27,809 bases of DNA, from NCBI GenBank assembly GCA_026770585.1, contig MU647406.1, forward strand, positions 86,630 to 114,438, given 5' to 3'. The stretch is from Baffinella frigidus. Lineage: Eukaryota > Cryptophyceae > Cryptomonadales > Baffinellaceae. Of the stretch, positions 1,347-26,700 are shown piece after piece. The position numbers were made by a program, and so were the translations under genes. A model generated the notes under the pieces. It saw nothing but the letters and a program-made list of their open reading frames with translations, was not told the origin of the DNA and ran no database searches. How positions within the stretch are numbered: position 1 is the first letter of the stretch; each line of letters begins with the position of its first letter.

Positions 1347-4300
1347 GTAATCGTTGATTAGGGTTCAGAGTTTAGCGTCAGAGGGGAATTCAAGCATCTG
1401 CGTTAAATTGAGAAACTTTCCGTTCACCTGCAGGCACGCCTCTCACCGCGGCAACCAGGGTTCAGGGTTTAGGGTGCAGGGTTTTGGTGCTTGTGATTCC
1501 AACGATGGCGGCCCTGTACTAAGGGTGTAGGGTGTAGGGTGAAGGATGTATGGTGTCGGGTTCAGGGTTCAGAGTTTAGGGTTTAGGGACCAGGGTTCAG
1601 GTCCCCAGTTGATGTTGGCCCAGCTGTCTCATGGTGGGTTCTCGCTGCCAACGAGTTGTAGTGAGACCAAGAAGCCTTGTCCGGTTTCGTCCCGGGAGGG
1701 CGTGCGGTGCCCAAACTACATCTCTCCCAGGCCTCTCAGGTGTACTACACGCTCATGCTACAGCACACACCTAAACCCTGAACCATGAACCATGAAGCAG
1801 GTGTACAACACGGTGACTGTAACGCTCAACGTCGACTGCGACCTCTCTGTCGGAACCCACCTTGCTGTCTCGGGCCTCATGGGTACGCTTCAAATCTGAA
1901 CCCTGAACCCTGAACCCTGAACCCTGAACCTTGAACCCTGAACCCTGTACCCTGAACCCTGAACCCTGAACCCGGAACTATAAACCCTTAACCCAAACCC
2001 CTACACCCTGCACCCCAAACCTTAATCCCTAACCCCTAAACCCTAAGCCCTAACCCCTAAACCCTATGCCCTACACCTAAACCCCAAGCCCGACACCCTA
2101 AGCCCCAACCCCTAAACCCTGAACACTCAAACCAGAAATCTTAAACCCGAATCCCTAAACACTAAAATCTAATCCCTAAACCCTAAACCCTAAACCCTAA
2201 ACCCTAAACCCTAAACCCTGAACCCTCAAACCTAAACCCTAAACCCCAAACCCTAAACCCCAAACCCTAAACCCTAAACCCTAAACCCTAAACCCTAAAC
2301 CCTAAACCCTGAAGCCTCAAGCCTCAAGCCTAAACCCTCAACCCTCAACCCTCAACCCTTAACCCTAAACCCCAACTCCTACACAAGACGTCCGGAAAGG
2401 ACCCATCAGTTGATCTTGGTTCTTGTGAAATCCGCTGGTGCACATGATCATAATAATAATATTGATATTGTATTTATCAGAACAATCATGGTAATTTGTA
2501 TTATCACACACTCTGATCAATCCGCGTGTGTCTTCGCGAGCAGGGACCCAGACAGCAGACGACTCATCGTTGAGCATTACCTCTACCTCCAACGTCTTTG
2601 GCACAAGCGCACAGTGGACGCAGGTAACCTCTAAGCCCTGAACCCTAAACCCCAAACTCTAAACACTCAACCTTGAACCCTAAACCCTAAACCCTAAACA
2701 CTAAACAGTAAACACTTAACACTAAACACTAAACACTAAATACTGAACCCTGAACCCCAAATCCTAGATCCTAAACTCGTCACCCCACAGCCTAAACCTT
2801 CCATCTCTCAGAGCACTGGGTTGCTGAACCATAAACCCAAAACTCAAACCCCTGAAACTTGAACCCAGGACATGATTAAACCTTAAACATCAACCCCCCC
2901 TCCCTCGCGCAGAGCACGGGGATACTGAACCTCACGGTCGCATCAATCACAACATCCGGGACCAACTACACTGTCACGGCAGAGGTCGTACCCCAAACCC
3001 TAAAATCCTATTGATGGGTACATTGCGTGGAGGTCAAACCACAACCTAACGCCTAAAACCTGAAGCTCTGAGCGCTGAACCCTGAACTATAAACCATAAC
3101 TCCTACACCCTCAACCCTAACCCCTACACCCCAAACCCTTAACCCTAAACTCTATCCCCTAAACCCTCCCCCAAACCCTAAACCGTGAACACTAAACCCT
3201 AAACCCTAAACCCTCAAGCCTCAACCCTAAACACAAACCCTAAACCCTAAACCCTAAACCCTAAACCCTAAACCCAAACCCAAAACCCTAAACCCTGAAC
3301 CCTAAAACCCTAAACCTTACACACCAGACCTGAAACCCTCAACACTAAAACAGGTCACAAATCTCGCGACGGCCCAAACTCAGAACCCTACACCCCAACC
3401 CCTAACTCCTAAACCCCCACCAATAAACCCGAACCTCTTATCCCAACACCTTGACTCCTACACCAGGTCACAAATCTCGCGACGGCGCAGACTGCCCCAA
3501 CCTTGGCTGTAGCGGGTGCTGTCGTTTCTCCAGGTCGGCACATCTCCTCAATTAACGCGACCAGAAGAGGGCTTCACAGATAGGTCCCTTTATTTTTGTG
3601 GTACTAATTTAGAATTGCTCGTTACTCCGGGTTTTGCTTTAATCGCTCTTCTGCTCGTGTGAACCGGCTCAAATACCCTTTACCCTAAAGATGTGCCATC
3701 AAGTTGTGCCCTAACCCCCCCCCCTTCCCCTGGGTGCTAATCTGCCAAGTCTCTTTAGATGCGCGCGAGTTGCACCCACCCTACTCGCTACACCCTAAAC
3801 TCGGTGGTGCACAACCGAACAGGCGCACTGGACTCCCCTATCGCATCGACGACGCTCTCGCTCCGCCCTGACCCGGACCTCCTGGGTGTTGCCGACGGCA
3901 AGTATCCTCTCGAGGTAACAAGGCTGTTTTTTTACACATTTTTCCGCGTGAGGGTGGACGCCCTTACTCCGGCGCCAACCTAATTCCGGCATTCCGTGTC
4001 ACCTTACTGTAGTGCATACGGTAGCATCCTACGGAATACCGGAATTAGGTTGACGCCGGAATTAGGAAGTCCACCCTTACTGGTTCTGTCTCAGTTATTC
4101 TGGTCTCATCATTCAATACATCTAGATCACGGTAATTTGCTGTTGAATCTACAAGTAGGATCTATCCACTGGGACCAAACATGGTCAGGAAAGCGCAAAC
4201 ATAAAGCCCTGGGGACAATCCCCGTCATCTGTTCGCAGGTCCACGTTCCAGTGTTCCTCGTGAACCGCAGTTCACCCCTTGCCCCTAAATCACAGCCGAG

Positions 4301-7300
4301 ATCTTATCCCGACAAGTATTCAAATTAAATGCCCAGGAATTGTACATAACGGCTAGGATTTGCAAAAAAAAGTAATTTTCACCAATTTCCACATAATCTT
4401 AGCCGTAGTACCCAGCTTTCGAGTATCTAATTTAAATACCTGGCGGGATGAGATACAACGCTCCTCTAGCCCCGATTCGCAGCTGCTCGTTCCGATGTTC
4501 TTGGTGATTGCGCGGGCATACAACAACACCATAAAATGAAAACTTCGTAGTCTACCGTGTGGCTACAGAGAAGCGCAAGCGTAAAGCCCTGGTGACGAGG
4601 CTCGAGACCTTTCCGCAGATCCACGTGCCGGCGTTCGTGGTGAAGACGATCCAGCAGTCGTCGCCGCTCGCGGCCGTCTACAACAACATCTCTGTCACCC
4701 TTCAGGTGTGGTGAGGTTGGGGGGGTGGGGAAAGAGGTTTCCTCGCGCGCAAACCTTGACCATTGATAGCAACTCGGCGGAGAGCCACACCTTGATCCCT
4801 GACATCATTTTAGCCGAGGGCTAAGGTTAACCTTTGATAGCATCTAGCCAGTTTCTGGCGGCAACCTTGCCAACAATCTCGGGCAAGCGCCGGACCCCAG
4901 CTCCTCGGGCACTGAGGCAGGTTGACTGCGACCCCTGCTCCTGGGGCAGGGTGGCTTTGCCTGACCCCTGCTCTCCTCGGGCAGGTTGACTGCGACCTGG
5001 CGGTGGGCAGCATCGTCGATATCACGGGACTCACCGGTCAGTGCTTTGTCGATGAACCCCGAACCCTCAGCCCTGATCCCTGAGCCCGAAACCTTAAACC
5101 CTAAAACCTAAACCCTGAATTCCTCAACCCTAAACCCTAAACCCTCAACCCTAAACCCTAAATCCTAACCCCTCAACACTAAACCCTAAACCCTCAGCAC
5201 TAAACCATAAACCCTCAACCCTAAATCCAAACCCCTGAATCTTAAACCCTAAAACCAAAAACCTCAACCCTCAACCCTCAACCCTAATTCCTAATCGTTT
5301 CAAGCCTAAACCCTAAACCCTAAACCATAAAACTTGAAACCTGAACCCCTGAAATCCAAATCTTAAACCCTGCTGCATGGAGACCCACGCGCCACACGGT
5401 TTGAGGAGGGCATCAAACCCCGAGAGTGTTGGCGGGCGCTCCTCGTTGAAAATCTGTGCTACGAAACGCCAAGTCCTGCGTCAGATCAGCAACATTCGAA
5501 CTTCAATTTTCTCACCAGAGGTCGCTCGGTCAACGTGCTGGTCACTGAACCTACGCCAGCAGTCACTCTCTCGGTCTGTCTGTTTCTTTATAATAATAAC
5601 AATACAATAATAATTATAATAATAATAATAATAATATGTAAGTCTGGTCTCTGTCTTGGGTCGACAGGCTCGCAGACCGACGACGACTTGGCGATAGCGA
5701 TCACGTCCTCGGAGGATGTCTTCGGGACTACCGCTTCCTGGACAAACACCACAGGTGCCTAAACCTCAACCCCTGCACTACATCTGAGATCCAACGCTCC
5801 AACGGCCCCTACTCCTGCATCGATGCGGGTCTCTGGCAAATTGCCGTGGAGTCTTGAGGAGATAATCCGACCACCTTAACCACCAAACCACGATTGCTTT
5901 GTGCGATTGAACGGGACTTGCAACCGAACCGTTTCAGGTGCTGGCGCACGCGCACGGAGCGTGTGCCGTGGAGCGTGAGTGTGCTCTGCGTGCTCTGCCC
6001 CGAGCGCAGAACGCGACCTCAGCAAGTCCTGCTGTCCTTTTTCCTCATGTGGTTCACGATCTTCTTCTCTGAGGCCGCCATGCCCCCGCTCTCAACACTC
6101 AACCCTAAACCCTAAGCCATAAACCGTTGACCCTAATCCCCAAACCAGGCTTGCTTTCGCTAACGGTAGCTTCAACCACCGCGAATGGCACTTCGTACGA
6201 GGTTGTGGTCCGGCTCATCAACTCTGGCACCGCCCAAGACTCCCCCACAATCTCTGTCGCCGGGATCGTCGAGGCTGGGATCTTGGATTCTCCGATCGTG
6301 GTTACCGACATGGTCAAGACCGGCGACACGCTTCTGTCTGTCGCCCAAGGTTACGACCCGATGAAGACCTGGGTGGGTAACTTCACGGTAAAGTCGATCG
6401 AGCAGAGCACGCCGCTCGTCAACGTCTACAACACCCTGACCGTGACCCTCGTGACGGACGTCGATCTCGCGGTGGGGACGATCGTGACGCTCACGGGGCT
6501 GGCGTCCACCGCGCACGGCGACGACGCCGCGCTCGCGGTCGCGTCGACCTCGTCCGCGTTTGGCACGGCGGGCGTGTGGACGCAGGCCAATGGCACGCTG
6601 GTCCTCACCGTGGACGCTGTGACCACGGGGGGGACCAGCTATCAGGTCACGTTCACGCTCCTGAACCCGGGGAGTGCCCAGAGCGCGCCCGAGATCACCA
6701 TCGCTGCCACCATCGAAGCGGGGGACCTCGACTCTCCCATCACCGCGGCGGCGATGGCGCAGCCGGGCTCCTCGCTTCTCGCCGTGCCTCTCTCGAAGAA
6801 CCCTCTGGAGATCTTTCTCCCGGTCTTCGTCACGCAGACCATCGGGCAGACAAACCCGCTGATCCACGCGTCCAACACCCTCTATGCGACGCTGGTGCCG
6901 TACCAAGACATGGCTGCCGGGTCCAACGTGACCATCACGGGGCTCACAGGCACCCAGACTGCGGACAACTCCTCAATCCTGGTGTCGAGTGCGCCGTCCA
7001 ACTTCAGGTCTACGGGCGAGTGGACGCAGTCCTCAGGGACAGTCGTGGTCTTTGTCGACACCATGCTCGACAAGGACGCGACGTACATCGTGTCCTTCGA
7101 GGTGCAAAACTCAGCCACCGCGCAGGACGCCGTTGTGGCAACGATCTCCGGGTACGTGGAAGCCGAGGGAATCCTCGACTCCGACATTGCGCCGTCGAAT
7201 ATGGCCAACGGCATCCAAGACATGATAAATGTGACCAACGGCTCGCACACGCTCTACACGATCGTGCCTCTCTTCACGGCGACGACCATCATTCAGGTTC

Positions 7301-8703
7301 TCGCGGAGTTCGTTAAGACGGACAAGCCGATGTTCCTATCCTATTATTTACTATGGGGCTGATCTAATAGTCTAATTGGTTGACTAATGTATTAATGCGT
7401 GCAGGACAACCTGCTGACCAACGCCTCGAACATCATCACGATCGTCCTCACCACCAACTGCGACTTTGCGCAAGCCTCCGTTATCACCCTCTCGGGGCTC
7501 AACTCCACGCAGGTGCACCACACCCTCAGCCCTCAACTCCAACATCCCCTCGCGGGGCGCACCTCCCCGCAGGTGCTCCAAAGCACGTTGGTCTGTTTAT
7601 TGTCAAGCAACTCAGTGAGGAAAGTGACTTTACTTGACGTGGTGTAACACAATCAAACGTTGTTTCACGCCTCGCAGACACCGCGCCCTACACCTCAACA
7701 GCGGTTGGGGTTGTCTGTACCCCGCTCCGCTGCTTGCGCTCCGTAAAGTCACTTCTCCCACTGAGTTGCTTTACAGTAAACATCTCTCTCTCCCGCACAC
7801 ACACGGAGGATGGGAGCGTCTTACTCACCCTCGACGGCTCTTCCTCGGCCTCGGAGTACTCGGCCACTGGATTAGGACCCTTATTAAATTTAGTCAGGGC
7901 CGTAATCAAACTTCATCCAGCTCCTATGACAATTAGGATATCTTTTTCGTTCAAAATAAACATGTACCCGGATTAACGCAGACGGAAGATGGGAGCGTCT
8001 CGCTGACGCTCGACGGCGATCCCGCGACCGCGGAGTTCACAGCCACGTTCGTCCAGAGCTCTGGCACGCTCGAGGTCGCACCCCTGCCGCTCTGCGATCC
8101 GTGCATCCGATAGGGGTGTGAGAGAGAGGGGGGGCGAGAGTGCGAGAGAGAAAGAGATATTTGCTGTAAAGCAAACTGGTGACCGGGCCTACATAACCCG
8201 CCCAAAACCAAAACAACCTGTAGCGCGAACGGAACACTCCCAGTGAACCTGGGATTATTCTCCAGAACTGAACTTCTCTCTGTCCGTTCTAGCCTCCCCC
8301 TTTTCCCCTGCGGGACTGTGTCATCAGAACGGTATGCTGACGACATCCGTTGCCACAAGCAGATCGTGGTAGCCTCGGCGTTGACCATGTACGGACAAAC
8401 CTCCTACGCGCTCGCATGGACGTGAGTGCCCGCAAACTCTGCAAATTATGCACCCTACCCATTACTGCCGAACCCCAAAGCCACTGGGAGCCACTGGGGC
8501 AGTGCGCCTGCCGCCCTAAATCAGAGGAACACAGAAATGAGACTTCAACGAGCGTGGCCGGAACTTTTTGCTGCTCGGACAAAGTGTATAAGAATAAGGA
8601 GCTCCACGCCAAAAATAACGCCACCAGAGCGATGTCCCGGTGATCAAACAAGCAGCTCAACGCACGATTGGAATCAAACATCAGAAAGAAACAGAGACCA
8701 AGC

Positions 8704-8741
<38 letters not shown>

Positions 8742-11700
8742 CTTCATATCCAAACCGCAGAAAGAAAGAGAGAGAGTTTTTTATTGACGACCACCTGGTC
8801 CGGATGCAATTCATCGTCGAGATAATTCAGCGGGCCGTCCTCGCGCCACGGGGGTTTGATTACCCACGCCGCACAGGTTATGGAACCCGCAGACACCGCA
8901 GGCTTCCCCGACGATCTATCTGGCCGCAACCATCGAGGCGGGCGGCCACGACTCGCCGGTCTCAACCCTAGACCACGCTAAACCCTATACCCTGAACCTT
9001 GAACCCTGAACCGCAAATGCTTATCCTAAACCTTAAAACCCTGACCCCGCAGGTCGTCACAACCTCGATTTCCAAACTCATCCAGGACATCCAGGTCCGC
9101 CCTTGATGCCTCGTCAGTGTGAACATTGTTTTAGTATTTTAGTGTTTGGGGTTTAGGGTCTAGTCTCCGTAATCACGCGCCGCAACGCCCTGCAGGGAAC
9201 GCAGTTTTGGACACTACGGAGCCATGCATTGAGTTCTAGCATTGAGGTCTGGCTAAACTCTCCTCTGACCTGAAACGGCAGTTTACCTCAACCCTAATCC
9301 CCAAACCCTACACCCTACACCCTACACCCTACACCCTACACCCTACACCCTACACCCTACACCCTACACCCTACACCCTACACCCTACAACCTACACCCT
9401 ACACCCTACACCCTACACCCTACACCCTACACCCTACACCCTCAAAGGTCAAACCGTAAACCGTAAACCCTGAACCCTATACCCTACACCCTGAAATAAA
9501 ACAGCGGAGAGCGTTGGCAGGCGGTGACGAATGGATCAGCGGTGCTGTACATCGAGCACCCGGGCTGGGACATGACATCGAGCATCGGCCAGACCGTGCC
9601 CTTCACCACTGAAACCAACACCATCAAGGTAGGGCTGCACCCTCTCCTTTGCCCAACTCCCTGCAATGCCGCTGGAGACTGTTGTTCCCCACCCGGGACT
9701 CTGTGATGCGATTGGCCTGCACTGAATCCCACTTTGCTGCAGGTGTCGTTCACGCCCAACGTGACCTTGCCGCAGTACTCATTCCTGACCATCAGCGGGC
9801 TGACGGGGACGCAAACGCCCGACGGGGCGATGGTCATCGGAGGGACCTCCGCGGCGGTGGTTGGGTATCAGGCGACTGGCACGACGGAGCTTGCTTCGTG
9901 GGTGCAGAGCGATGGAGTAATGACGTTCCGGCTGGAGCAAGATGTCGTTGGACAGGTGGCATACGCGATCGAATGGAACGTCACGAACCCAACCGCCGCG
10001 CAGAACTCCCCATTCGTCAACATCTCAGGCACAATCGTCGCAGGCACGCGCCTGTCAGAGCTGCAACTCGACCCTGTCACCAAACAGACCGGGCAGCTGT
10101 ACGGTGTCGGGTATGCAGGGCTTGGACCGGCGCTGAACAATGACATCGGGAATCCGCTCGAGGTGGTATATGTCAACTTCACGGAATCGAGCATCAACCA
10201 GTAAACCCCACACCCTAAACCTGAAACCCTAACCCGTAAACCCTAAATCCTAAACGCTTAACCCTAAACCCTAAACCCTAAACCCTAAACCCTAAACCCT
10301 AAACCCTAAACCCTAAACCCTGAACCATTAACCCTAAACCCTGAACCATTAACTCTAAACCTTAAACCCTCAACCCTCAACCCTCAACCCTAAACCCTAA
10401 ACCCTAAACCCTAAACCCTAAACCTTGATCCCTAAACCAGGTCCTCGCCCCTCGCAGGCGCCGACAACTTCATCACCCTCCAGATGTACACCCTAAATCC
10501 TAAACCCTAAACCCCGAACCTCAAACCCTAAACCCTGCACCTTAAACCTGAATCCCGAAATTCGTAACCCTCAGCCCGAAACTCGAAACCAGGCACGTGC
10601 AGTGCTGGACAGCACTGCAGGAGGTGGGATGCCGATTCCCTTCGAGCAACACTCTCTCCGGCGGCGCAAACGTCAACGGCAACGGGTCCTCCTCGTTCAC
10701 GATCTCGGGGCTGACCGGGACGCAGACGCCGTCTTCGGTGCAGGGGCTGACAATGGCGCAGGCGCCCTCTGCGGTGTTCGAGATGGACGTCTTCGTCCAG
10801 AACACAGGCTACTTCACGCTCACGACCCCTGCGACAATCGACGCCAACCTCTTCTCCTCCCTCTTCTCCCACACATTCCAGTTCATCTTGCAGAACTCCG
10901 CCACGGCGCAGGAGGCGCCGACCTGTACGCGCCCTCAACTCTGCACCCTAAACTCTAAACCCTCAACACTAAATCCTAAGTTTTATCCCAAACCCAAAAC
11001 CCTGAACTCTGAACCCTAAACCTTACACCATCCATGCTTCACAGTGTCGCTGCAAGGGAACCTCGACTACCTCGACTTCATCCACGTGGTGCGAACGCCC
11101 CTCAACCCCAATCCCTGAACCTACCCCCTACAACCTACACCCTACCCCCTACACCCTACACCCTACACCCTACACCCTACACCATAAACCCTACACCTTA
11201 CACCCAACACCCGACACCCTACACCCCACACCCCACCCCACACCATACACCCTACACCCTGCACCTTACAGCCTACACCTTGACCCCTAAACCCCAAACC
11301 CTGAACCCTTAACCCTAAAACTCGAAACCAGGTGCCCTCGGTGACGATCGCGACGACGAACGAGACGCTCCTCGGCATAGCCTACGCCTCCGCCACGCTC
11401 TACACACACGTCCCCGAGATCGAGGCAGCCAAACCCCCATCTCTAAACCCTAGGGCCTAAACCCGCACCTAACCCCTAAACCCTAAACCCTAAACCCCTG
11501 ACCCTGAAGCAGGCAGCGACAGTCTCGCACTCGTCGCCCCTCGCCTCGGCGGACAACGTGGTGTCCGTCTCCCTCGTCGCAAACGTAAACCCTAATCGAT
11601 AAACCCTAAATCATCAACTCTGAACCCTGAACCCTGAACCCTGAACCAGGCGGACCTCGCGCTGGGCACAGGGTTGACGATGGTGGGGTTCACAGGCTCG

Positions 11701-14700
11701 CAGACCCTCACCGTGGGCCAGGGCTTTGCTTTGTCAGGTTACGAGCCGCGCCTCCCTTTCTCGCGTTTGCGTACATCAAACGTTGAATGGAACTGTTCTC
11801 TGAAGGCAACTCCTGAACCCTAAACCCTGAACCCTGACTCCTAAGCCCTAAACGTTCAACGTGATCGCGTTGGCAGGCAACAACGCGTCGGCACTCATGG
11901 ACGTGAACGGGGCAACCTCCAAGAGGGGCTGGTCCCGCGCCGACGGACTCGTAATCACCCCCACCCACACACTCGAAACGACTTGTAATCACACGTCCGT
12001 TACCCCACAACCGCTCTCTGTTTGCTTCACATGTGTAGTAAATCCCCACCCCCTTGGCAGGTGGTGATCCAGATCGCGCTGGCCGACGGGATCCCCGCCC
12101 ACTCCCCGATCGAGTTCTCCTTCACGATCCAGAACCCTGCTACCGCCCAGGTCCCTAAACCCTAAACCCTACCTAAACCCTAAACCCTAAGCCTCACTTG
12201 GGTTTAGGCACTGGCGAAGCCTAAACCCCACGCCCTAAATCCTACAGGCCTCCCCTTCTGTCGAGGTCCACGCAAGTGTGCGGGCCGAGCCTCCATCGGG
12301 GTTCGACTACACGCATTTTGCTCCGATAGCATCGTTCACGGCAAGCAAACTGTCGACCGACCTCATGGGAGTCGGCGGCGGCGCGCAAGTCCTCTACACG
12401 GTGGTGCCGGAGTTCAATACTTCGGCGATCGGGCACTCCTCCCCCCTCGCGTCCGCCGACAACGTCTTGACTGTGACGATCCAGGTATTCTCTCGCGCTC
12501 TCTCTCGCTCTCGCTCTCTCTGTCGCGCGCGCTCTCTCTCTCACACACACACTCTCGAGCGCGCTCTCTCTCGAGCGTTATCTCTCGCTCCCTCGCGCGC
12601 GATCTCTCTCTCTCTCTGAAGCATCTCTCTCTGCCTCCGCAGGCCTCGGTCGACATGGCTTTGCTCACCACCATCACCATATCCGGCCTCACGGTACTTA
12701 CTCCTCATCTGCCTGACTCTCCTGAGGGCAACCTAGAGGTGCATTTTCTTGGACTTGGAATGCGGTATGTTGAAGGTTTGGCTAACGGCTGATCCCGCCA
12801 CCTCGACAGGCGGCTCAAAATGCCGACGCCGCCACAGGGTTTGCGCTCACAGGGACCAACGCCAGGTGACCTTTCAACGTGCTGCATTCTGCTCCGCCCC
12901 GATTCTATCATTTTATCATTTGCTGACGCCTTCGCTATGGACTTATGATAGGCTGAAACCTCGTCCCCCGTGACGCAGCGACCTATACGACGGGGTGGCG
13001 CTTTCGAAGGGCACGTGGACCAAAGCGTCCGGCTCGCTGGTCGTGCGTCTGGCGCAAGGCACCTCCGTCTCGGACGAGCTAGTGTTCTCCTTCACGCTCC
13101 GGAACCCCGCCACGGCACAGGTGTCTCCGTCCATCTCGATCGAGGCCTCGATTGCAGGCTACGGGACCCACCAAGCGCCGATCGCGGCTGTTGCCATGAC
13201 CAAGACGAGCGGCGACCTGATGAGCGTCTCGGGGGGGGGCGTCCCGTTGTACGTTATGGTGCCATCCTTTGCGACCAAGGCGATCGCGCACACATCGCCC
13301 CTCGCCAACGTCGCCAACACCTTCTCCGTGACCATCAAGGCCGACGTCGACATGGCGCCCGGGACTGCCATCACACTCTCGTACGCTGCATCCGAAACTC
13401 CAAACCCAAACCCAAACCCAAGTCCAAACCCAAGTCCAAACCCAAACCCAAACCCAAACCCAAACCCAAACCCAAACCCAAACCCAAACCCAAACCCAAA
13501 CCCAAACCTAAACCCAAANNNNNNNNNNACCCAAACCCAAACCCAAACCCAAACCCAAACCCAAACCTAAACCCAAACCCAAACCCAAACCCAAACCCAA
13601 ACCCAAACCCAAACCCAAACCTAGACCCCTGAATCCCACACCTTGAACCCTAAGATTAGTAAAACTAAGTTGTTGGTGTGGATGGGCCCTCAGGGGCCTC
13701 ACTGCCTCCCAGACCGCCTTCGCGGCCACAGGCTTCTCGATCGCAGGGACGAACGCGAGCAACCTCTACGATGGATCCACGCTCGGAACCGCGTCGTGGA
13801 CCAAGGTGCTGGCCCGAACCCCGAAACGTTTGACCTCCTCATCTTCCGCCCAGCTGTACTTCCTCAATAAAGCGACACTCTCCCACGCGAACCCCTGCAG
13901 GCATCGGGGGCGCTGGTGGTGCTGCTCGCCAACGGATCGCTCGCAGCAGACTCGCTGGTCTTCTCCTTCGAGCTGCAGAACCCCGCAACCGTGCAGGCCT
14001 CCCCGTCCATCTACGCACAGGTCCTGCCAACACTACCAGAATTCACGTCGCCCCCTGCAGTTTTACGTTTGGTCTATATCCAGGACAAGTGTAGGAAACC
14101 TCTTTCTCTGACTGAACACTAGACCATAGCCTGATCCCCCAACCTCGTCCTCTCCTCCTCTCGCGCAGGCGTCGATCGCAGGCGACGGGACCAACCGAGC
14201 GCCGATCGCGGCCGCCGCCATGACCAAGGCCAAACCTCAAATCCTAAACCCTTCACCATGAGTGCTGAACCCTGAGCCCTCAACCTAAAACTCTAAAACA
14301 GGCGAGCGGTGACCTCCTGGGCATCTCGGGCGGTGAGACCCTACACCCTGAAGCCCAACCCCAATGAACTCTATAAAGCAACTCTGTCTCCCGCTCTCTA
14401 AACGCTTAACTCTAAACCCTGAAACCCAAACCCAGGCGGCGTACCGCTCTACGTCGTGGTGCCAGCCTTCATAACAAAGGGCATTTCGCACTCCTCCCCG
14501 CTCGCCAACGTCGCAAACACCGTCTCCGTAACCCTCCAAGCCTCTGCGGACATGACGCCGGGTTCAACCGTCACCCTCTCCGGCCTCACGGGGGTGCAGG
14601 ACGCTGACGCCGCATCAGGGTGAGCGCTAACCCCTAAACCCGAAACACGAAATCTTGAACCAGAAACCCGAAACCCGAAACCAGAAACCCGAAACCCGAA

Positions 14701-17700
14701 ACCCGAAACCCGAAACTCGAAACCCGAAACCCGAAACCCGAAACCCGAAACCCAAAACCCAAAACCCGCAACCCGAAACCCGAAACACAATACCCTAAAC
14801 TAAACCCTAAAACCTAAACCAGGTACCCGCTGGAGGGGGCAAACGCGACGATCCTGTGGGACGGCGCTGCCCTCGCCTCCGCCTCCTGGACCCAGGCTCG
14901 TTCAGGGAGAGGGGTTCAGGGAGAGGGTGTGGGGTGAAGGGTGAAGGGTGAAGGGTGTAGGGCGTAGTATGCCTCTATTGAGGGCAGAAACCTTGAACTA
15001 AACCCTAAGTCCCAGACCCTAAACCGCAGGCCTCGGGGACGCTCGCGCTATCCGTAGCAAACGCGACCCGCGCTGAAGACGCCCTCTCCTTCGCCTTCGT
15101 CCTCCGGAACCCCACCACTGCACAGGCCTCCCCGGACTTCTCCGTCTCCGGAACCATCCTCGGAGCGGGATCAGGCGGGTTCACGTCGCCCTTCACTTCG
15201 GTCTACCCCTACACCGTAGTGACTTTTTTTTTCTCTCTCTCTCCAAGCGAGAAGTTGCTTTACAGTGCATCTCCCTTAACCCTACACCTGAAACCCTCCA
15301 ACTTGATCACCAAATTCAAACGCAGGTGGCGATGGTAAAGGCGTCCGGGGCACTCCTTGGGATTGCAGGCGCCGCGGAACCGCTGCTCACCCTGGTAACC
15401 CCCGAAACTCTACACCCCGCGAAATATTCACCATAATGTGAGAGGGTTACCCAAACACCCGAAACTCTGAACTCAAAATCTTTCACCCCAAAAACCTGAA
15501 CCCTGAGGGGTTTGGGTAACTTGAGAATCCCAACTCCCAAACCCTGCACCAGGTGCCGACGATAGCGGTGGCGGCGATCGGGCAGTCGTCGCCGTTCGCG
15601 GGGGCAGTCAACACCCTCACCCTCACTCTCCAGTTCGCACAGGACATGGTACTCCCTAACACCCAAACCCTACACCACAAACACTAAACCCAAAGCACTG
15701 AACCGAAACGGCGGTGAACTTACACCTAAACCCGAGACTCTAGACTCTCATCCCAACCCCCAAACCCCTACCCAGGCGGTCGGATCGACAGTCACCCTCG
15801 CGGGACTCACCGGGACAAACACGCCCGACACGCAAGCCCTCCCGGTTCCCCCCAAACCCTGAACCCTGAACCCTGAATCCTGAACCCTGAACCCTGAACC
15901 CTGAACCGTAAACCTTAAACCCTAAACCTTGATCCCTAAACCTTAACCCTAAACCCTGAAACCTGAACCCTGAACCATGAACCGTAAACTAGGTGTCGGA
16001 CAGCCTCTCGGCGTTGAACACATCCGGGGTCTTCAACCAGATTGGCGGGACGCTCGTGCTCGCCTTCGCCAATGCTACCGAGGCGGACCAGGTCCGTCAC
16101 CCTAAACCCCAAGACATGTTTGGTTATGGTTTAACAAACGATGAACTCTGACCCTGAGCTATTATTTCTAAACCCTGAACCCCAACCCCTACACCAGGTC
16201 CTGACACTGTCCTTGGACCTCAACAACCCCGTGGCCGCGCAAACCTCACCAATCCTCTCCATCTCCGGCACAGTCTCCGCACCTGGCGCCTACTCTTCCT
16301 CCATCCCGTCGTTTACGATGACTAAGGCGGCGGGCGCGCTGCTTGGGGTGGAGGATGGCGCACAGCCGCTTTTCGTTTCCGTCCCGAGGCATGCTCCCTG
16401 AGTCATACACCGTAAACCACCAATTCCTCAAAATCCAAACCCTACACCCTACACTCTACACTCTACACCCTACAACCTACACTCTACACCCTGCACCCAT
16501 GAACCCTGGAGCCTGCCACAGGTTCACCCTCGGCAAAATCCGGCAGTCAGTGCCCTTCACGGGCGCGGCCAACACCCTGACAGTCTCGTTCACCACCTCC
16601 TTCACGGTCCTCGCTGCCTACGTCGCCTCTTTCACCATTTCAGGCCTTGAGGTCAGACCATAAACCCTGAACCCTTAACCCTAACCCCCAATCCATGAAA
16701 ACTGAAAACCCCACACTTTAAACCTCAAACCCCGAACCCTAAACCCTAGACCCTACATCTTATCCCCTAAACCCCACACCGCAAACCAGGGCTTCACGCT
16801 GGACGCCGCCCCTGCGCTCACCGACATCTCCGGAGGGCTGGGCCTCGAATCAATCCTCATCTCCCCTGTCGGGTCGACCCCAAACACTCAACCTTTATCC
16901 CTAAGCCCCAAACCCCAAATCCCAAGTCCAAACCCAAACCCTAAACCCTTCATCAGGTCGAATGCCGACAACACTTACATTTTGACCATCAACGGAACCC
17001 TGGAGGCGACTCTCCCGTATGCTTTCACGTTCAGCGTGACCAACCCCGCAGCGGCTCAGGCGCGCTCCGCCCACCTACCATGCGGAACAACTTTTCATCT
17101 GTACCACGAAAACAATTCAGGTTGAACCGTTGTGTTTGCAATCCAAAACTGATGACCTCGTCTTGCAATAAATCTTGCTCCCCTGAACCCCAAATCATAA
17201 AACAGGCGGCGCCGACGATGTCAGTGACAGCAGGGTTCCTCACCTCAACTTTTTCCCTCGCGCTCTCCACCGTGTCAACGCCCGCCTTCGGCAAAACCCG
17301 AACCCGAACTCCTACACGGCTCAGCTGTTTGCTGCACCCTAAACTCAAACCACCAAACACCATACACCAATAGCCAAACATCAAACACCAAACACCAAAC
17401 ACCAAGACCCAAACGCTAACCCCGACACTGCATCGCACAGGAGTGCCGGCCGGAGCGCGCGCGGGGTACATCGTCCAGCCTTTCTCGGTACGCTCCCTTA
17501 CCTAACCTCCCCGGGAGAACCAAGGTTGTCGGCGGTAACCTTCCCCGTGAAACCCCTGTGAAACCCCCAGGAGTGAAACCCCGTGAAACCCCAAAAGTTG
17601 GGGGGTTCAACCCTAAACCCTTTGTCATTCACACTCCTAAACCCTAACCTGGCAGGTCAAACCTCGTCACGCTTCTAAACCTCACACCCAACAGTTGCGG

Positions 17701-20700
17701 ACGATTGAAGGGTCCTCGACAGTCGGCGGATCGCTGACCAACATCACCGTTACGCTCAAGACCGAGATCGTGTTTATCCGCGGGGATAAGATCACCCTCT
17801 CGGGCCTCATCGGTACCGCTCTTCTCCCGTTTCCCCTAGGGTTTGAGGGTGACCCCGACGCTTGATTCGCCAGGCCTTGACGTTTGATTCTCGGGGATAC
17901 TCACCGTAACCCCTACCCCTAGGCACGGGCACGGAGGCGGCGGCATACTCGGTCTCGCTCTCTGACGTCGGGTCCAGCGGCGCCGCCGGAAACACGGGGG
18001 TATCCTACCTTACCTAACCCTTACACCCTATACCCTATACCCTTCACCCTACACCACACACCATGAATTTTGAACCCTAAACCCCAAACCCTTAATCCCA
18101 ATCCCACAAACAGAAGCTCGAGACGTCCGCAACATTCACGGAAACGACGGGTGTGCTGGTAACAACCAAGCCACAGACCCTAAACCCTAAACCCTAAACC
18201 CTAAACCCTAAACCCTAACCAATATACCTTTAACCCCAAACCCTAAACCCAAAACCCTCAACTCCAAACCCTAAACCCTGAACTCTAAACCCTAAACCCT
18301 AAACCCTGACCCAGGTGCTGACGGTGACCGACGATATGTCCGCCTCCACGGAATATGCGTTCCTCTTCCAGCTCCGCAACCCCCCGGCCTTCTCTGATGC
18401 GGCCATCGTCACCGTCTCAGCATCCGGTTCTAAACCCTAAACCCTAAACCGTGATACATCGTCCCCTCCCTCGCATCAGCTACTTGACCTGCTGTTCTGA
18501 CACTATGCAATGGTGGTTGAGCAGGCTAACAGGTTATTCTCAAGTTGACACCCTGCGTTCCTGGTCCACATGCGTCAACATTTGGGGTTGAGCAGGGGCC
18601 ACAGCGACGATTTCGGCGCTGACGATGGACGCTGTGTCCAACTTCACGGGACCGCTCCAGGCACAAAAACCTTAAACCCTAGGCCTTAAACCTTAAACCC
18701 TAAACCCTAAACTCTTAGCTGTAAACCCTAACCTTGAATCCTAAACCCTCAACCAGGTGTTCAGTGCGATGGAGTTTTCGTCCCTTTCGTTCGACCCTGC
18801 GACGGCCGGCGCGGCAACAACCCTCGTCTTCAACTTTACCATCGGCCAGGTGCGGGTGAACAAGGCAGAAAGCAAGACAAGAGAGTTGACCCGGTACGTT
18901 TCTCGTTCTTTACAACAGGACAATGTTTTGGCAGTAAATCTCTCTCTCTCGACATTTCAATAAAGCAACACAATCTATCCAGGACGTGTCAGCAGGCGGG
19001 GTGGTGACCTTCCTCCTCCCCTACTTCACGGGTGGCACCGACGCGGGAATCTCCGTCTCCTCTTCCTTGATCACGACCTCCGGGGACTCCTCGTCCCCGC
19101 ACGCCGTCTTTACGTCCGCGTCTTGGACACGCGCGGGTGTGTCCAGCACACTCGTGCTGACAGTCGCGTCTGGGCAATCGGCGGGCGCCAACGACGTGCA
19201 GGCGGTCGTGATATCGTCCGAGGCCGGCATTCGCATCCCGCCGCAGGTCCGTGAAAACATGACCCTAGATGAGCACGCGCAGGGGCAATCCGCAAACGAC
19301 ACTAAAATCATAAACCCTAAAACCTAAACCCTACTCCCCAAACCAGGGGACAACCGCAAACGACACGGCCTTCAAAATGAGCGCTGAGTCCGCGGTCTCC
19401 TGCGTCCTATCCTCCCAAGCCATCGCCGGAGCCTTCGGAGGCAAACCCTATACCCTAAACCCTAACCCTAAACCCTAAACCCTACTTTGCCAATCATGGC
19501 TTTCAATACAGTGAAGTCTCTCTCTATCTAAACCCTAAACCATAAACCCTAAACCCTAAACCCTAAAACGTGAGACCCAAACCCTGAACCCTGGACCAGG
19601 GGCGTCTGTCTCGTTGCTTCCGTCCAACGCCTCCGCGACGATCCCTGCTGCGTACGGCGTTTATCTCGCGCTCACTGAGGTCACGGCCAGGATATGCCAA
19701 GCATTGAACTTTCTGGAGGACTCTCTTGAAACGGAAGGGTGGTGCGTGGCACCAGGTTGCAAACACTAAACCCTAAACACCAAACACTAAACCCTACACC
19801 CTTCATCCCAGGTGACGGTCGGGTTGCTACTCGCGGAGGGCGACCAGATCGCGCTCCGCCCCGCGACTGCCGACTGCTTCTCCACCCGGTCAACCCTAAG
19901 CCCCAACACCTGAAACCTGAAACCTAAACCCTCAACCTTAGACCCTAACCGGATGCCTCAAACCCTCAACCCTAAACCTCTCAGGTTTGTGACGGACGCG
20001 GGGACGGAGACAGAAGGGGTGTTTCTCGACGGGAACCTCTCGGGCACCCTTAACGCCTCCGGCCTCGCTTCGGGGGAGTACAAAGTGTGCTACGTGCAGC
20101 GCACGTGGGCGGGGAACGCCACGGTGGGCGTCGACGCCGAGACAGGGCTGACCCTGACAGTGCAGGACGCGGTCACGGCCCTCGCCATCGGCGCACAGGC
20201 CGCAGGTCACGCCCCTCGAGGCTCACCCCAAACCCTAAACCCTAAACCCTAAACCCTAAACCCTAAACCCCGACTTCCATCCGAGCAGGCGTGCGGCTGC
20301 AGGCGCCGCGCAACCAGTTTGCAATCACTGTTTCCGGCGCCTCAGGTAAACCCCAAACCCTAAACTATGAATCGTTTACCCTAAACCCGAAATCCGAAAT
20401 CCGAAATCCGAAATCCGAAACCTGAAACCCGAAACCTGAAACCTAAAACCCTGAACCCTAAATCCTAAACCCGAAACCAGACGGCATCTCCGCGGGCGAC
20501 GGGCTCTCGCTGGTCCTCTCAAACTTCTCGTGCGCTGACGCCGCGGCCGTAACCCCCCAACCCCCAACCCCTAACCTCAAACCCTAGCCCTCAACCCTCA
20601 ACCCAAAAAGCAGGGCGGCGTCTCAGCCTCATCGGGGCTGTACTCAGGCGAGGCCACACTCCCCACCAGCCTCGGCGAAGACGTTGGTCTTCGCGCGACG

Positions 20701-23700
20701 TTCGCCTTCGCGGGGTGCAGCCCGGCCGGGACGCCCAAGACTCTCGGAGGGGCCGGGGGCTGCCCGGAGGTGGGGGTATGGTGGGTCTGCTACATCCCGA
20801 TAGCTAGTAATGTGTCGCAGGAGACGGGAGTGGCGGTTGAGGTGGAGCAGCCCTCTATCGCGATCGCGTCCGGCTCGGTACGCAAACTCCTACACCCCAA
20901 ACCCTAAACCCCAAACCCTAAACTCTAAACCCTGAACCCTACACCCTGAACCCTGAACCCTGATCCCGAAACCAGGCCGGCGCGTCGCTCTCCGTCGACG
21001 CGACCCTCGACACGTTCGTCGTGTCCGTCACCCAGGGGGGTGTTGCGTGCTGCCAGGGCACCCAGGTCCTAAACCCCAAACCCTACCCCCTAAACCCTAA
21101 ACCCTAAACCCTAAACCCGAATTTCTGAACAAGTTTTATTGACGGCAGGTCTACATGAACCTGGTGATGGACGCGACCACGGACATGTCATCCTTCCTCT
21201 TCACGTCCTCCGGTTCCAATGCTGACGCGGACAAGACAGCAGTCTCCACGTCCGCGGGCACAGGTTCAAACCTAAACCTTAAACCTTAAACCCTAAACAC
21301 TAAACACTAAATCCTAAACCCTAAACCTCAAACCCTAAACCATGAACCCCCAACCCTAAACCCCAACAAACCCTAAACCCTGAAAGCCCTAAGCCCTAAA
21401 TCCTAAAAAGTAAACCCAAACCCCACAGTGACGTTTTCTGGGCTGGCGGTGAAGCTGACCGGGGGCGCGGCGTTCAAGCTTCAGTTCTCGAGCGCGGGCG
21501 CGACTACGGCCGAGAGCTCGACATTCATCATCATTCCGCACGGCCTCGCGGTGAGAGAGGGACAGAAAGAGAGAGTGAGTGAGTGAGCGAGAGAGTGTGT
21601 GAGAGAAGCTTTACTGAAAGCTTTGCAGCAAGCGCGCTGCGGACATCTGACACACACATCTCGCAACAGGTGCTGACTTCGATCGACGCGGAGCTGTTCA
21701 CGGGAGCGGGGGGTGTCACAGCTCTCCCCGCACAGTTCACCATCTCTGCGCAGGACGCTGACCTCGCCACCATCACTGGTAACTCTGTCATCCCTCAACC
21801 CGTCAACGCTAAACCTGTCAACGCTAAACTTACAACCCCTCACGCAGGCATCAATTCAGTCGACGAGCTCGCGATCCTGGTCTCTCTGCACACGGGGGAC
21901 AACGGCACCGACGCGTCCCTCAGCACCACCCTCGGGGCAGCCTCGGACCAGACAGCGCTCCTCCCGGCCTTGGCGCGCACCTCCGGCGCTGCTATCCAGA
22001 ACGGATTGGCGGTGTTTAATGACACGCTGGCGCTCTCGCTCACGGGAATCGCAGGGCGGTACTTCAAGCTCGTCTTCACGCTCGAGGGCTACCCGGACAT
22101 CACCGTATCGTCCACCACCTTTCAGGTTTCCCCGGCAGCGTTCAAGGTAGGGTACGGCGCGGCGAGCACTGACTACGATGCCCCCGGCTTCCCCTACGTG
22201 GTCCGGCTAGACGGCAATGCCTCCGACTCCCCGAACGTCGACGGGCTTCCCTCCTCGCTCACCGTCTCGCTGATGGGGGACGCGAGCACGGTGCTGAGCA
22301 AGGCCGCGTGCTCCGCCTGCATGATCGCGCGCCTTGTCAAGTGCGACGGTGTGCCACCCCGCCACTATCACTACCAAAACCCTAAACCCTACCGCGATCA
22401 GCTGTTCCTCTCTCTCCCGTTCTCACTCGCGCCCCCCGTCCCACCACCTTGAGGCCTCCGCGACCAGCTGGTTCCTGCCCAGTAACCCTCTCTCTAATTC
22501 GGTTATCACCAAGTGAACCCGCTCTCCCGCGTAGACTCGACGCCGACGTCCGGAACAACCTCCGGCGAGGTCACTTCGGACTGGGCGCCTGCCTGCTCCA
22601 GCACCCTCTCCGACGCCGAAGATGACGAGATGTCCGGCGCAACCCAGGTGCCTCCCTCTCTCCTGCAAAACTCCCCACTCCTTACGCTTGCACACAACAA
22701 AGATAAGACACCTCTCCTTGCTCATGTGGCCTGTGCTTTGTCACCTATTCCGCACGAGGCCTACGAGCCCCCCCACGAGGCAAGTGCATCTAATCTGTGA
22801 ACGTGCCTGCCCGCAGGCGCGGTGTGCGACGGCCAACACCGCAAGGACGGCTTGCACGTCGCCCAACGCGGACTCGGACCAGTTCGCCCACACCCTCTCC
22901 AACGTTCTTGGCGTAGTTGGGGGGACCACTGCGGACGTCGTCGCCGGTACATCACAAACTCCTAAACCCTAGACCCTAGCTTATTCAGGATTTAGGGTTT
23001 ACGAACACCATCAACGTTGCAGAACCATTGATTCAAGGGTTCCTCCACAGGGGTGGCGACTTTCACGGGGCTGCAACCGCACTTCGTGGTAGGCGCCGGG
23101 TACCGCCTCCGCTTCGTTTTCAACCCTCAGGACGCGTCAGGTTCCTAACCACCAAACCCTAATCCCTAAAATATAAACCCTCAACCCTAAACCCTGAGAT
23201 TCCGAACGTTCCTAAACCCTTTACCCTGGGACTCCGAAGGTTCCTAAACCCCTAAACCCTAAACCCAAGCTAAGAGTAGGGACTTTGGCTGGGTAAACCC
23301 TCAACCCTAACCCCCTGAGCGGCAGCGTTTAATGTAGCGTCGGCGCACACGGCCGCCAACGGGAATGTCTTCCTCCCAGACGCAGGGTCGCACGTCACCG
23401 CGCCCATCAGGTCAGACCTTTTTCGGTAGCTAATTTTACAGAGTATATTCCCTAAACCCCAAACCCTTAACACTAAACCCTAAACACTAAACACTAAACA
23501 CTAAACTCTAAACCCTAAACCCTGATCCCTAAACCCTAAACCTTAAACCCTAAACACTAAACACTCAGCAGTAAACCCTAAACCCTAAACACCAATCCAG
23601 CTCATTCTTCGTGCGCCCGACCTCCCTGGTGGTCCTCCAATCCCCGGGCGGCGACGGCGTCGACCTCGGCGCTTCCGGCGGTCAATCCGAAACCCCTAAA

Positions 23701-26700
23701 CCCCGAATCCCTAAAGCTTCCCAGGAGGTCATGACTCGTAGGTCGCACGTTGCGGTGAACCCTAAACCCTAAACCCTTAAAACCTAAACCCTAATACCTA
23801 AACCTAAACCCCTGACCAGGCGACGGCGAATCAGGGACGCCCGACGGGGTCGGCCGCGCGATCCTCTTCCGCTTCCAGCCGATCATCGCCCTCCAGGGCG
23901 ACGGGTACCCAGACCCCAAACCCTAAACCCCAAATCACAAATCCTAACAATAAACAATAGACCATAAACCATAGACCATAAACCATAGACAATAGACAAT
24001 AGACAATAGACAATAGACAATAGACAATAGACAATAGACAATAGACAATAGACAATAGACATAAGACAATAGACAATAGACCATTGACAATAGACAATTG
24101 ACAATAGACAATAGACATTAGACAATAGACAATAGACAATTGACAATGGACCCTGAACAATTCGTGAAAGCGTAAACCCTACTCCCTACTCCCTACACCA
24201 GGTACTACTTCACATCATCGTGGGGCGTGCACGGACACATCCCCGTGACCGCGATCATCAAGGGCGATTCCTGCGGGGGGTCGTCCTACTCCAACTGCTC
24301 TGCGCGCTGGGTCTGCCCACTAATCCCGAAACCCTACGCCCTACACTTCTCCCAAAACACCAAACACCACACACCAAACCCAAACACCACCACCCAACCT
24401 CAAGACCCTAAACCCCAACCCCCAAACATCAGGTGATGCTCTCCGGTTCGCTGACCCCCCCGACCTCGACGCACGCCTCCTTCTCAGCGGTCTCAGCCGA
24501 GGGCCTCCCGTACGCTGCCACCGAAGACGGTATCGACCCTAATCCCTCAACCCTGAACCTTGAACCTAAACCCCCAAACCTAGAATCCGAGACCCTACAC
24601 ACTGAACCCTGAAACCTGAACCCTGAAGCAGGCACGTCTTCGGGGGGGGGGGGGTTCTCTGGAACGCCTTCGGGCGCCGACGCGGTTACACCCTCAACCC
24701 TCAACCCTCAACCCTAAACCATAACCCCTAACCCTGATCTCTGAACCCTGAATCAGGTAGAGGCGATGTACACGCAGAGCACGGCAGTGACCTACGGGGG
24801 GACAGCGTACACCTACACCACGTCAATCACGCGGCTGGGGTTCGCCTTCAAGGACCTGTACGTCAACACCTCCGACGCCAGCACGGGAGCCGAGGACGTG
24901 CAGCTCTCGTTCCTGGTCGGCGTCGACACCCTCAACGCGACCGCTGCCGACTCAGGTTCACGGGTTAAGGGGTTGATGGGTAAAGCTTATGGACTTGCCC
25001 TAAATTCTTAACCAGTAGTTGATTGCTTTGCAGTGACTCCCGCTGTCCCGCGCAAGCCCCAAACCCTCAACCCTAACGCAGGGTCGGGCGGGGCGTTCAC
25101 GGTGGCGTCGTCCTCGCCGTTTGACGTCTTCCTTCCGCCTGAGCCTCCCACCAACCTCCAAGCTGTCGCCTACGGGCCCCAGGTACCGAGAGAGAGGTTG
25201 GGGGTCAAGAGTTGAGAGTTGAGGGTTTAGGTGGGTCAAAGAGAGATTGACTGTACAGGAATTGGCCCTACATATCTTAAGCGCAAACCCCAAACCCAAC
25301 CCGCAGGGGATCCGGCTAGAGTGGGACCCCCCTTCCGTGACGCGCGCGCGTCCCCTCTCGGGATTCATCATCCAGATCGACCAATGCACTCAGGTCCGAA
25401 GCCTGAACCCTGAACCCCCAACCCTAAACCACAAGCCCTAAATCCCAACCCCCAAACCGCAAGCCTTAAACCCTAACCCCTAAACCCCAAAACCTAATCT
25501 CTAACCCCAAACCCCTAAACCCTAAACCCCAAACCCTAAACCCTAAACCCCAAACCCTAAACCCAAAACCCTAAATCCAAAACCCTAAACCCAAAACCCT
25601 AAACCCCAAACCCTAAACCCCACCCCGCAGGCCGTCTCCACGACCGGCTTCACGGCAGTCACGACCGGGTCGTGTCCCCCAGCGAGGATGGAGTACGACG
25701 CGTCGCTCCCGCTCGCGACCGAGCTCGCGTCCGACTTCGCCCACGCCGGCGGCCGCACCCAGGTCGATAATCACCTAAACCTAAACGCTGCATCCTAAAA
25801 CCTAAGCCCTAACCCCAAACACAGGAGGTGGCAGTTGCGTGGAGTCACACGACGGGCGGCATTGCGGTCGCGATCACCCTCGCGTTCGTGCCGGCCCGCA
25901 CCCTCGAGGTCCCCTCCAACCCCCACATTCCTCCTCAACCCGGGGGTTCTCAACCCTCAGCATCTGCGGTGCCTGTGATGAGATGTCGTGGCTAAGGTGT
26001 TCGGATGAACTCTGCAGGTCGGCGACACGCTGACGCTGGGGTTTGGGTTCCCCGGGATGCTCCACGCCTCCGACATCCCGTCTGTCGCCCTGTCTGGTGC
26101 CCTGAACCCTCAACTCGAAACCCTCAACACTGGAACCTAAACCCTGAACCCCTAAACCCCTGAACCCCTGAACCCTAAACCCTAAACTCTAAACCCCAAA
26201 CCCCAAAGCCTAAACCCTAAACCCTACACCAGGGGCGGCTGCGGGCGGGTACACGGGAGCGTGGACCGCAGCCTCCTCCACGCTCGTCCTCACCCTCGCG
26301 ACTTCCGTGCGACCTGGGAGGCCCCAGGTCTAAACTAAACCCTAAACCCCAATCCCTGAACCCTAAACCCCAAAATCCAAGCCCGAAACCCGAAACCCGA
26401 AACCCTACACCAGGCGCTGACCATATCCGAGAGCAACGACATCGCCTACCCCGACGGCGGCAGCACACTCTTCGCATACGCCTACGGCTCGGCGTTCACC
26501 CCACTGGTCCCGCTGCTCATCGTTGGGGAACTCACGGGCGCCTCTGCCTCCGGCCGCCACGACAACTGCAAGGTGAGAGAAAGATAGATGCTTTATTGAA
26601 GAAGTACAGCTGAGCGAGACTACAGAAAATCCCAAACCGTCAGCCCGAAGGAGGGGAGGAGGGGAGCAGAAAACCAAACCCTGGCCCCTAACCCCTAAAT

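Follow-up and report, generated by a model that had tools for sequence, protein, structure and literature searches.

What has filled the introns of a gene of Baffinella frigidus with telomere-type heptamers, and why do nearly all of these heptamers face the same way? The question is raised by a stretch of 27,809 nt (contig MU647406.1, positions 86,630–114,438; hereafter, the window), whose right end coincides with the contig end. It carries a very intron-rich nuclear gene, whose introns are predicted to be spliced, and the best explanation of the data is that telomere-type DNA (CCCTAAA; TTTAGGG on the complementary strand) gave rise to most of these introns or took them over. The arrays nearly always have their C-rich strand as the sense strand, fill many introns from end to end, keep a register with the 3' splice site, and lie in introns whose positions are mostly unshared between homologous protein modules, a pattern suggestive of the repeated conversion of telomere-type DNA into introns. 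The 3' register lock and the differing intron positions are new relative to an earlier reading made from the letters of the window (the sequence-only reading), which had described the strand bias.

The gene model was obtained by dynamic programming on codon usage, stop-free frames and GT/GC..AG ends, with nine open-frame stretches as the training set, and it found one single gene, starting at ~1242 and continuing to the contig end:

1242–27809, + strand: modelled gene of 87 exons and 86 introns, with 3697 stop-free codons, extending to the end of both the window and the contig

The 86 introns were left from 93 raw ones after the merging of chained introns (separated by zero-length exons and, once, by a 9-nt exon); 78 have GT-AG and 8 have GC-AG ends, and the median lengths of introns and exons are 133.5 and 90 nt, respectively. 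As for spliceosomal (U2-type) introns, they have GT/GC-AG ends and their removal restores the frame in the model, giving a coding sequence of 11,091 nt without a stop. The ends are imposed by the model, so the sole independent support is the continuity of the encoded repeat-module protein, which has 14 homologous modules of ~150 residues each within its first 2180 residues. A second model, without splice-site profiles and with codon statistics borrowed from the first, agrees with it (at the middle setting) on 70 of the 86 acceptors, 74 of the 86 donors and 62 whole introns. In the protein collection, the long exon at 6149–7296 has matches to 20 other proteins (E ≤ 0.001), which are unnamed or 'hypothetical protein'; a Pfam scan of its protein gave nothing above the cut-off, with DUF7604 just under it.

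Orientation of the arrays in the window and in other genes

The strict motif CCCTAAA occurs 189 times on the + strand of the window against 9 on the − strand, and AACCCT 307 times against 35. When tracts were scored on the sense strand of each of the 86 introns, 65 proved to be C-rich only, 8 to hold both kinds, 1 to be G-rich only and 12 to hold neither (C only versus G only, p = 2e-18); that is, C-rich tracts are present in 73 introns, and G-rich tracts in 9, 8 of which are also C-rich. The summed tract length in introns is 6925 bp C-rich versus 292 bp G-rich; letter-shuffled introns give 264 ± 63 bp and, on average, 9 bp, respectively, and the exons are nearly array-free (8 and 0 bp). This bias is unchanged across match thresholds from 10 to 13 of 14, and the upstream 1241 bp of the window are biased oppositely (217 bp G-rich versus 17 bp C-rich). 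The GC skew is −0.667 in the arrays, and small outside them: −0.071 in the non-array part of the window introns, −0.101 in the array-free introns, −0.090 in the exons, and −0.035 in the non-array part of the kinesin introns described below. It is therefore the array that is oriented, and not the strand in general. A general strand asymmetry was rejected as the cause on these grounds; CT runs of 4+ number 12 in sense and 5 in antisense.

At a unit-match threshold of 10/14, arrays make up at least 70% of 43 of the 86 introns and at least 90% of 22, and in the former 43 a median of 1 nt separates the array from either splice site. The statement of the sequence-only reading that the introns consist of CCCTAAA-type units is thus apt for about half of them, and not for the rest. 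The following introns serve as examples (a slash marks the splice junction):

1883–2543, + strand: intron with the longest C-rich tract (1895–2381)
10201–10440, + strand: intron, array end to end, GTAAACCC...CCCTAAACCAG/G
11585–11649, + strand: 65-nt intron, array end to end
20346–20480, + strand: 135-nt intron, array end to end
26097–26232, + strand: 136-nt intron, array end to end, with the 3' end ACCCTACACCAG/G

Blocks of opposite orientation had been called few, and six were listed. Five of these overlap a G-rich tract, and the sixth (12200–12209) falls below the threshold; in total, 13 G-rich tracts were detected, seven of them beyond the list, at 15504–15517, 17837–17850 and 24961–24975 (inside 1883–26411), and at 5–198, 455–478, 1355–1378 and 26869–26885 (outside it). 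The avoidance of pairing between introns, suggested as a benefit of the single orientation, would at any rate not be absolute, as eight window introns hold both orientations. The principal opposite blocks, and the introns concerned, are:

1–198, − strand: GGGTTGA-type array on the + strand, upstream of the modelled gene, in opposite orientation
1347–1800, + strand: intron with the most G-rich sense content (133 bp); a C-rich block (1766–1791) adjoins its 3' splice site
9137–9166, − strand: G-rich tract in intron 9095–9520, with a C-rich tract downstream
14945–14967, − strand: G-rich tract in intron 14896–15029, with a C-rich tract downstream
22983–23005, − strand: G-rich tract in intron 22947–23050, with a C-rich tract upstream only
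25211–25233, − strand: G-rich tract in intron 25183–25306, with a C-rich tract downstream
26869–26885, − strand: G-rich tract in the sole G-only window intron (26829–26964)

The same orientation is seen in other genes of the assembly (382 Mb, 1364 contigs). One gene family was sampled: a search for the kinesin motor family gave 45 exon matches, and those forming 15 ordered one-strand groups (our own grouping) were used, the stretches between ordered matches being scored on the sense strand of the gene. The 15 genes, 3 of which lie on the minus strand, hold 8140 bp of C-rich sequence in 107 blocks versus 490 bp of G-rich sequence in 16 blocks, and C exceeds G in 14 of the 14 tract-bearing genes. 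A sixteenth locus (L101), left out of the count with its single match, has 454 bp C-rich and 67 bp G-rich in sense. For gene modelling, L093 and L095 were excluded for their stretches of N, and L089 was used without its last match; three of the remaining 13 (L084, L091 and L098) gave no model path, leaving 10 modelled genes. Their 101 introns comprise 43 that are C only, 5 that are G only, 53 with neither and 0 with both (C versus G, p = 1e-8). The claim that the C-rich strand is the sense strand in most introns is borne out by these data, and equal orientation was not encountered in the genes examined, namely that of the window and the 14 tract-bearing kinesin genes.

Across the 382 Mb, (CCCTAAA)3 has 27288 forward and 25832 reverse matches, as compared with 14 and 13 for the reversed control. 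The near-equality on both contig strands is what would be expected of genes lying both ways, and is silent on the orientation of intergenic arrays. Ten preset 5-kb samples were also inspected, seven of which are all N. Of the three that are readable, one (L104) has coding segments that switch from minus to plus, and the array orientation mostly switches along with them; another (L105), without coding signal, has three C-rich and four G-rich blocks; and the third has coding segments and no tract.

Register and positions of the introns

The position of the heptamers relative to the 3' splice site was assessed for the 55 window introns in which a unit match lies no more than 45 nt from it, taking the distance modulo 7. 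A single class, CCCTAAACCAG/G, accounts for 33 of the 55 (7.9 expected, p = 6e-15): array ends tend to fall at a constant distance ahead of AG/G. The class is retained by 26 of 52 introns when units 20–45 nt upstream are considered, by 28 of 51 at 30–60 nt and by 22 of 50 at 45–80 nt; the last of these ranges lies outside the reach of the acceptor profile, so the register persists past it. Moreover, the 7-nt periodicity recurs in the gene model made without splice-site profiles. Nor is the register a general splice consensus, as the array-free introns mostly have G at base −4 (8 of 12) and the in-register ones mostly C (22 of 33). On the 5' side the register is weaker (best class 15/55; 3' versus 5', p = 0.001). 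In the kinesin genes, 19 of 32 introns modelled with generic ends only fall into the 3' class of the window, as do, in a model-free test, 22 of 51 CAGG sites behind a unit; the control CGAG shows no class (19 sites), and a 4312-bp array without coding signal contains just five CAGG, of which a single one follows a unit, in a different class.

The sequence-only reading had the units supply both branch sites and a pyrimidine tract. With regard to the former, the density of CTRAY 10–29 nt upstream of the 3' site exceeds that at 40+ nt 3.2-fold (21/1720 versus 42/10955 nt, p = 5e-5), which suggests that variant units may serve as branch sites; however, CTRAA, which comes from the plain unit, is also 1.7-fold denser there, so part of the CTRAY excess is array density, and CTRAY occurs 12–55 nt upstream in 22 of the 86 introns versus 16.0 ± 3.7 in shuffles. 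The case for a pyrimidine tract is weak, since the last 20 to 4 nt are 58% pyrimidine and C/A-rich (C 0.41, T 0.17 and A 0.29) rather than a true tract. An avoidance of AG through unit variants, at first sight a mark of selection, was considered and rejected as evidence. In the window, A>G changes number 46 at unit position 5, where no AG is made, and 3 + 3 at positions 6 and 7, where it is, and the kinesin genes have 68, and 16 + 7; the same spectrum is found in an array without coding signal (C1:185.7–190.0 kb; 20, and 1 + 2, by a non-overlapping count that supersedes the 34, and 2 + 3, from overlapping loci), and hence belongs to the repeat family.

The 14 modules allow intron positions to be compared within one protein. 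They contain 51 introns at 41 alignment positions/phases, of which just 8 are common to two or three modules; over all module pairs, 12 sharings are seen out of 222 possible ones, and the closest pair, at 65% identity, has three and five introns with none in common. The 33 unshared positions comprise 28 with C-rich arrays and 5 without. Inheritance of intron and array together, via module duplication, was rejected for most introns, given that the positions are mostly unshared, and an ancestor with 41 introns per module followed by differential loss is implausible. Elsewhere in the genome, contig C411 has related modules in two frames that run for 3866 and 2109 codons without a stop. In that region (C411:366648–386116), the very long stop-free frames encode modules akin to those of the window gene, and appear to be intron-free.

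Origin of the array-bearing introns

As the best explanation we propose, with our confidence evenly poised, that telomere-type repeats were repeatedly inserted into exons and that only those with the C-rich strand in sense could be spliced; the breaks, the telomerase and the splicing filter of this scheme are what we infer. Short stretches of telomere repeat would be put into exons, for instance at double-strand breaks by telomerase or as telomere-derived DNA. A break at a CCAG/G-like exon site would bare a GG of the antisense strand that matches the observed register, and TTTAGGG synthesis from it would leave CCCTAAACC-AG/G on the sense strand: an array that is C-rich in sense and ends, in register, at a 3' splice site already present, with a freer end at its 5' side. 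The mirror event, on the sense strand, would be expected to be equally common. Such reverse insertions would carry AG and GT in every unit, and possibly form G-quadruplexes in the pre-mRNA; presumably, they would be badly spliced and lost from exons. The near absence of G-rich sense arrays is what a filter of this kind would produce. The arrays would afterwards grow, shrink and mutate by slippage, and candidates for such growth are the following:

9305–9442, + strand: homogeneous (ACCCTAC)20 array, 98% matches, within intron 9095–9520, which points to local growth by slippage
13395–13621, + strand: hexamer array AAACCC, 38 copies, 88% matches, within intron 13381–13693; the 10-N gap of the window falls inside it
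23947–24151, + strand: heptamer array ACAATAG, 29 copies, 89% matches, within intron 23905–24201; the 7-bp period is retained and the telomere sequence is not

Several observations weigh against this explanation. The introns are those of a gene model, and their splicing is predicted. Their insertion into uninterrupted exon sites, as is required of introners, is suggested indirectly by the unshared module positions and the stop-free related modules; no empty orthologous site was seen. Target-site duplications, a mark of many, albeit not all, introner families, show no overall excess at the window introns (permutation p = 0.16 and 0.22): exact junction repeats of 6+ number 6 versus 5.2 expected, and there is a nominal excess at 2 of 13 junction positions (−5, p = 0.004; +3, p = 0.013; both uncorrected). 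The 5' side is also in register, with 28 of 55 introns in two neighbouring classes. The model-free kinesin test is, by itself, not clean, as the control ACGG clusters too, in a different class (11/20), and strong clustering is seen for CCGA (66/99), which forms part of a unit variant. Intron gain is not confined to arrays, given the array-free introns at 5 of the 33 unshared positions; 53 of the 101 modelled kinesin introns are likewise array-free, and the five that are G only, with no C-rich array, indicate that G-rich arrays are tolerated alone. Slippage, too, builds arrays, as in the three just listed, and kilobase arrays without coding signal exist (C1:187–190 kb).

The main rival is growth inside older introns: telomere-like arrays would have invaded introns that were older or otherwise born, and splicing would have picked the C-rich orientation and barred G-rich arrays from the vicinity of the 3' site. 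This we regard as unlikely, although far from negligible. The array-free introns (12/86 in the window, besides those of the kinesin genes) and the slippage-type arrays are in its favour, as are the absence of any G-rich tract from the last 30 nt of all 86 window introns (0/86) and the C-rich tract downstream of the G-rich one in 7 of the 9 introns concerned. However, with only about a dozen intronic G-rich blocks, that absence is weak evidence, and the five G-only kinesin introns break a strict rule. Moreover, 22 of the 86 introns are at least 90% array, end to end, and a growing array could end anywhere, whereas the observed register is fixed to the 3' junction. Less probable by far is a copying of the introner type, in which an array-bearing intron multiplied as a unit, by transposition or reverse splicing, keeping its orientation and its 3' end. 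The conserved orientation and 3' register and the mostly unshared positions would agree with this; with respect to identity of the ends, on the other hand, the 3' ends share the register and CCCTAAACCAG/G, but the 5' ends are diverse and in weaker register, and overall target-site duplications are lacking. Least probable, and in our view very much so, is a transcription-linked mutation or instability by which arrays G-rich on the non-template strand (prone to R-loops and G-quadruplexes) were lost and C-rich ones persisted without selection for splicing, for although the bias follows the strand of the gene, and the array without coding signal has the same unit-variant spectrum, the non-array intron DNA has little skew and a 3' register lock is not predicted.

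Repeated insertion into exons can be set beside known systems. Introners, which are transposon-derived, are alike in that repeated DNA makes many introns at new positions in aquatic protists, with splice sites taken partly from the element and partly from the site (PMC9860276); they differ in being elements with conserved ends, as opposed to 7-bp telomere-type tandem units with no overall signal of target-site duplication, and the string 'telomer' is absent from the main text of that paper. The introner elements of Amoebophrya, a protist whose telomere motifs are of the TTTAGGG type, are also repeated introns that invade, but they have non-canonical splice sites, along with inverted and direct repeats (PMC7789003), whereas the sites modelled here are GT/GC-AG (as imposed by the model). 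In mammalian DNA, the breaks into which telomeric repeats are inserted often leave nucleotides such as GG or GGG exposed that are in phase with the repeat, and telomerase has been proposed to take part (PMC7215372). The arrays described here resemble these short interstitial telomeric sequences, being tandem telomere-type repeats at internal sites; the register of the former is locked at the 3' side and that of the latter is set by the nucleotides exposed at the break. According to the same source, none lie in human coding exons and the intronic share is compatible with random insertion, whereas in the present genes such repeats account for much of the sequence of many introns and take their orientation from the gene. 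For most gained introns, according to a review (PMC3443670), the mechanism of origin is not known; the review includes intron birth from DNA put in at a break, a route like the one proposed, and its account of seven intron-gain mechanisms does not name telomere repeats, the material found here. Plant telo boxes are short AAACCCTA motifs in genes, but they are single motifs, enriched in 5' untranslated regions, with intron counts at or below expectation (PMC3022908). No description of telomere-repeat introns was found in the portions of the open-access literature searched, to which subscription journals mostly do not belong.

More broadly, and tentatively, the insertion of telomere repeats at CCAG/G-like sites might be an intron-generating pathway of its own, to which this genome would owe a large part of its introns, with splicing as its orientation filter; we lean somewhat against a claim of this breadth. 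If true, simple telomere-type repeats would constitute intron material that needs no transposase and brings a built-in 3' splice site, and would account for both the orientation rule and the register rule. With ~53,000 overlapping (CCCTAAA)3 matches in the assembly, orientation, register and empty sites could be counted over very many introns, and near-uniform repeat introns would be natural substrates for studying how the spliceosome locates the branch point and the 3' site.

Further arrays and minor observations

Within the window, an exon start of 20 bp occurs twice in identical form, at 3354–3373 and 3467–3486, with 93 bp of telomere-like sequence between the copies; this looks like the duplication of a 3' splice site together with an array insertion, or an unequal exchange. 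By eye, an exon start, together with the intron end that precedes it, recurs in diverged form inside intron 3915–4618 (4186–4300 and 4571–4680), and similar sequence of the AGCATGTCAACTT type is seen at 540–660 and 735–930, upstream of the gene, and at 27107–27141, in the third-last intron, possibly as a dispersed repeat.

Elsewhere, C1:187–190 kb (L046, 1200–3021, and L053, 1700–3021) consists of kilobases of degenerate CCCTAAA arrays, C-rich on one strand, and possibly represents an old telomere or a block of subtelomeric DNA. In viral contigs, five loci carry (CCCTAAA)5, in which tandem-repeat scans reveal one or two isolated arrays, and a CCCTGAA pattern occurs in 39 loci (from tract counts only); an array-acceptor pattern is present in one genome contig (again from tract counts only) and in none of the viral contigs, among which no relatives of the long exon of the window were found.

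A search for the myosin family gave four exon matches, which were not used in the analysis, and one for the light-harvesting family (PF00504) gave nine exon-level matches in the assembly, which mark its source as a photosynthetic eukaryote. Two light-harvesting proteins were compared with PDB chains: one has ACPI, ACPII or CAC chains among its first 16 rows (best 9.5e-78), and the other is a distant match to several kinds of chain, with LHCI-11 first (1.3e-32). ACPI, ACPII and CAC are names of cryptophyte antenna proteins, and point to a cryptophyte as the most likely source, rather than to a dinoflagellate, the origin considered first. A light-harvesting protein at L113:1090–2022 carries, in one open frame, the EF-hand-like residues DVDGSGSIDANEL and DMDGNGAIDYAEY before the antenna domain.

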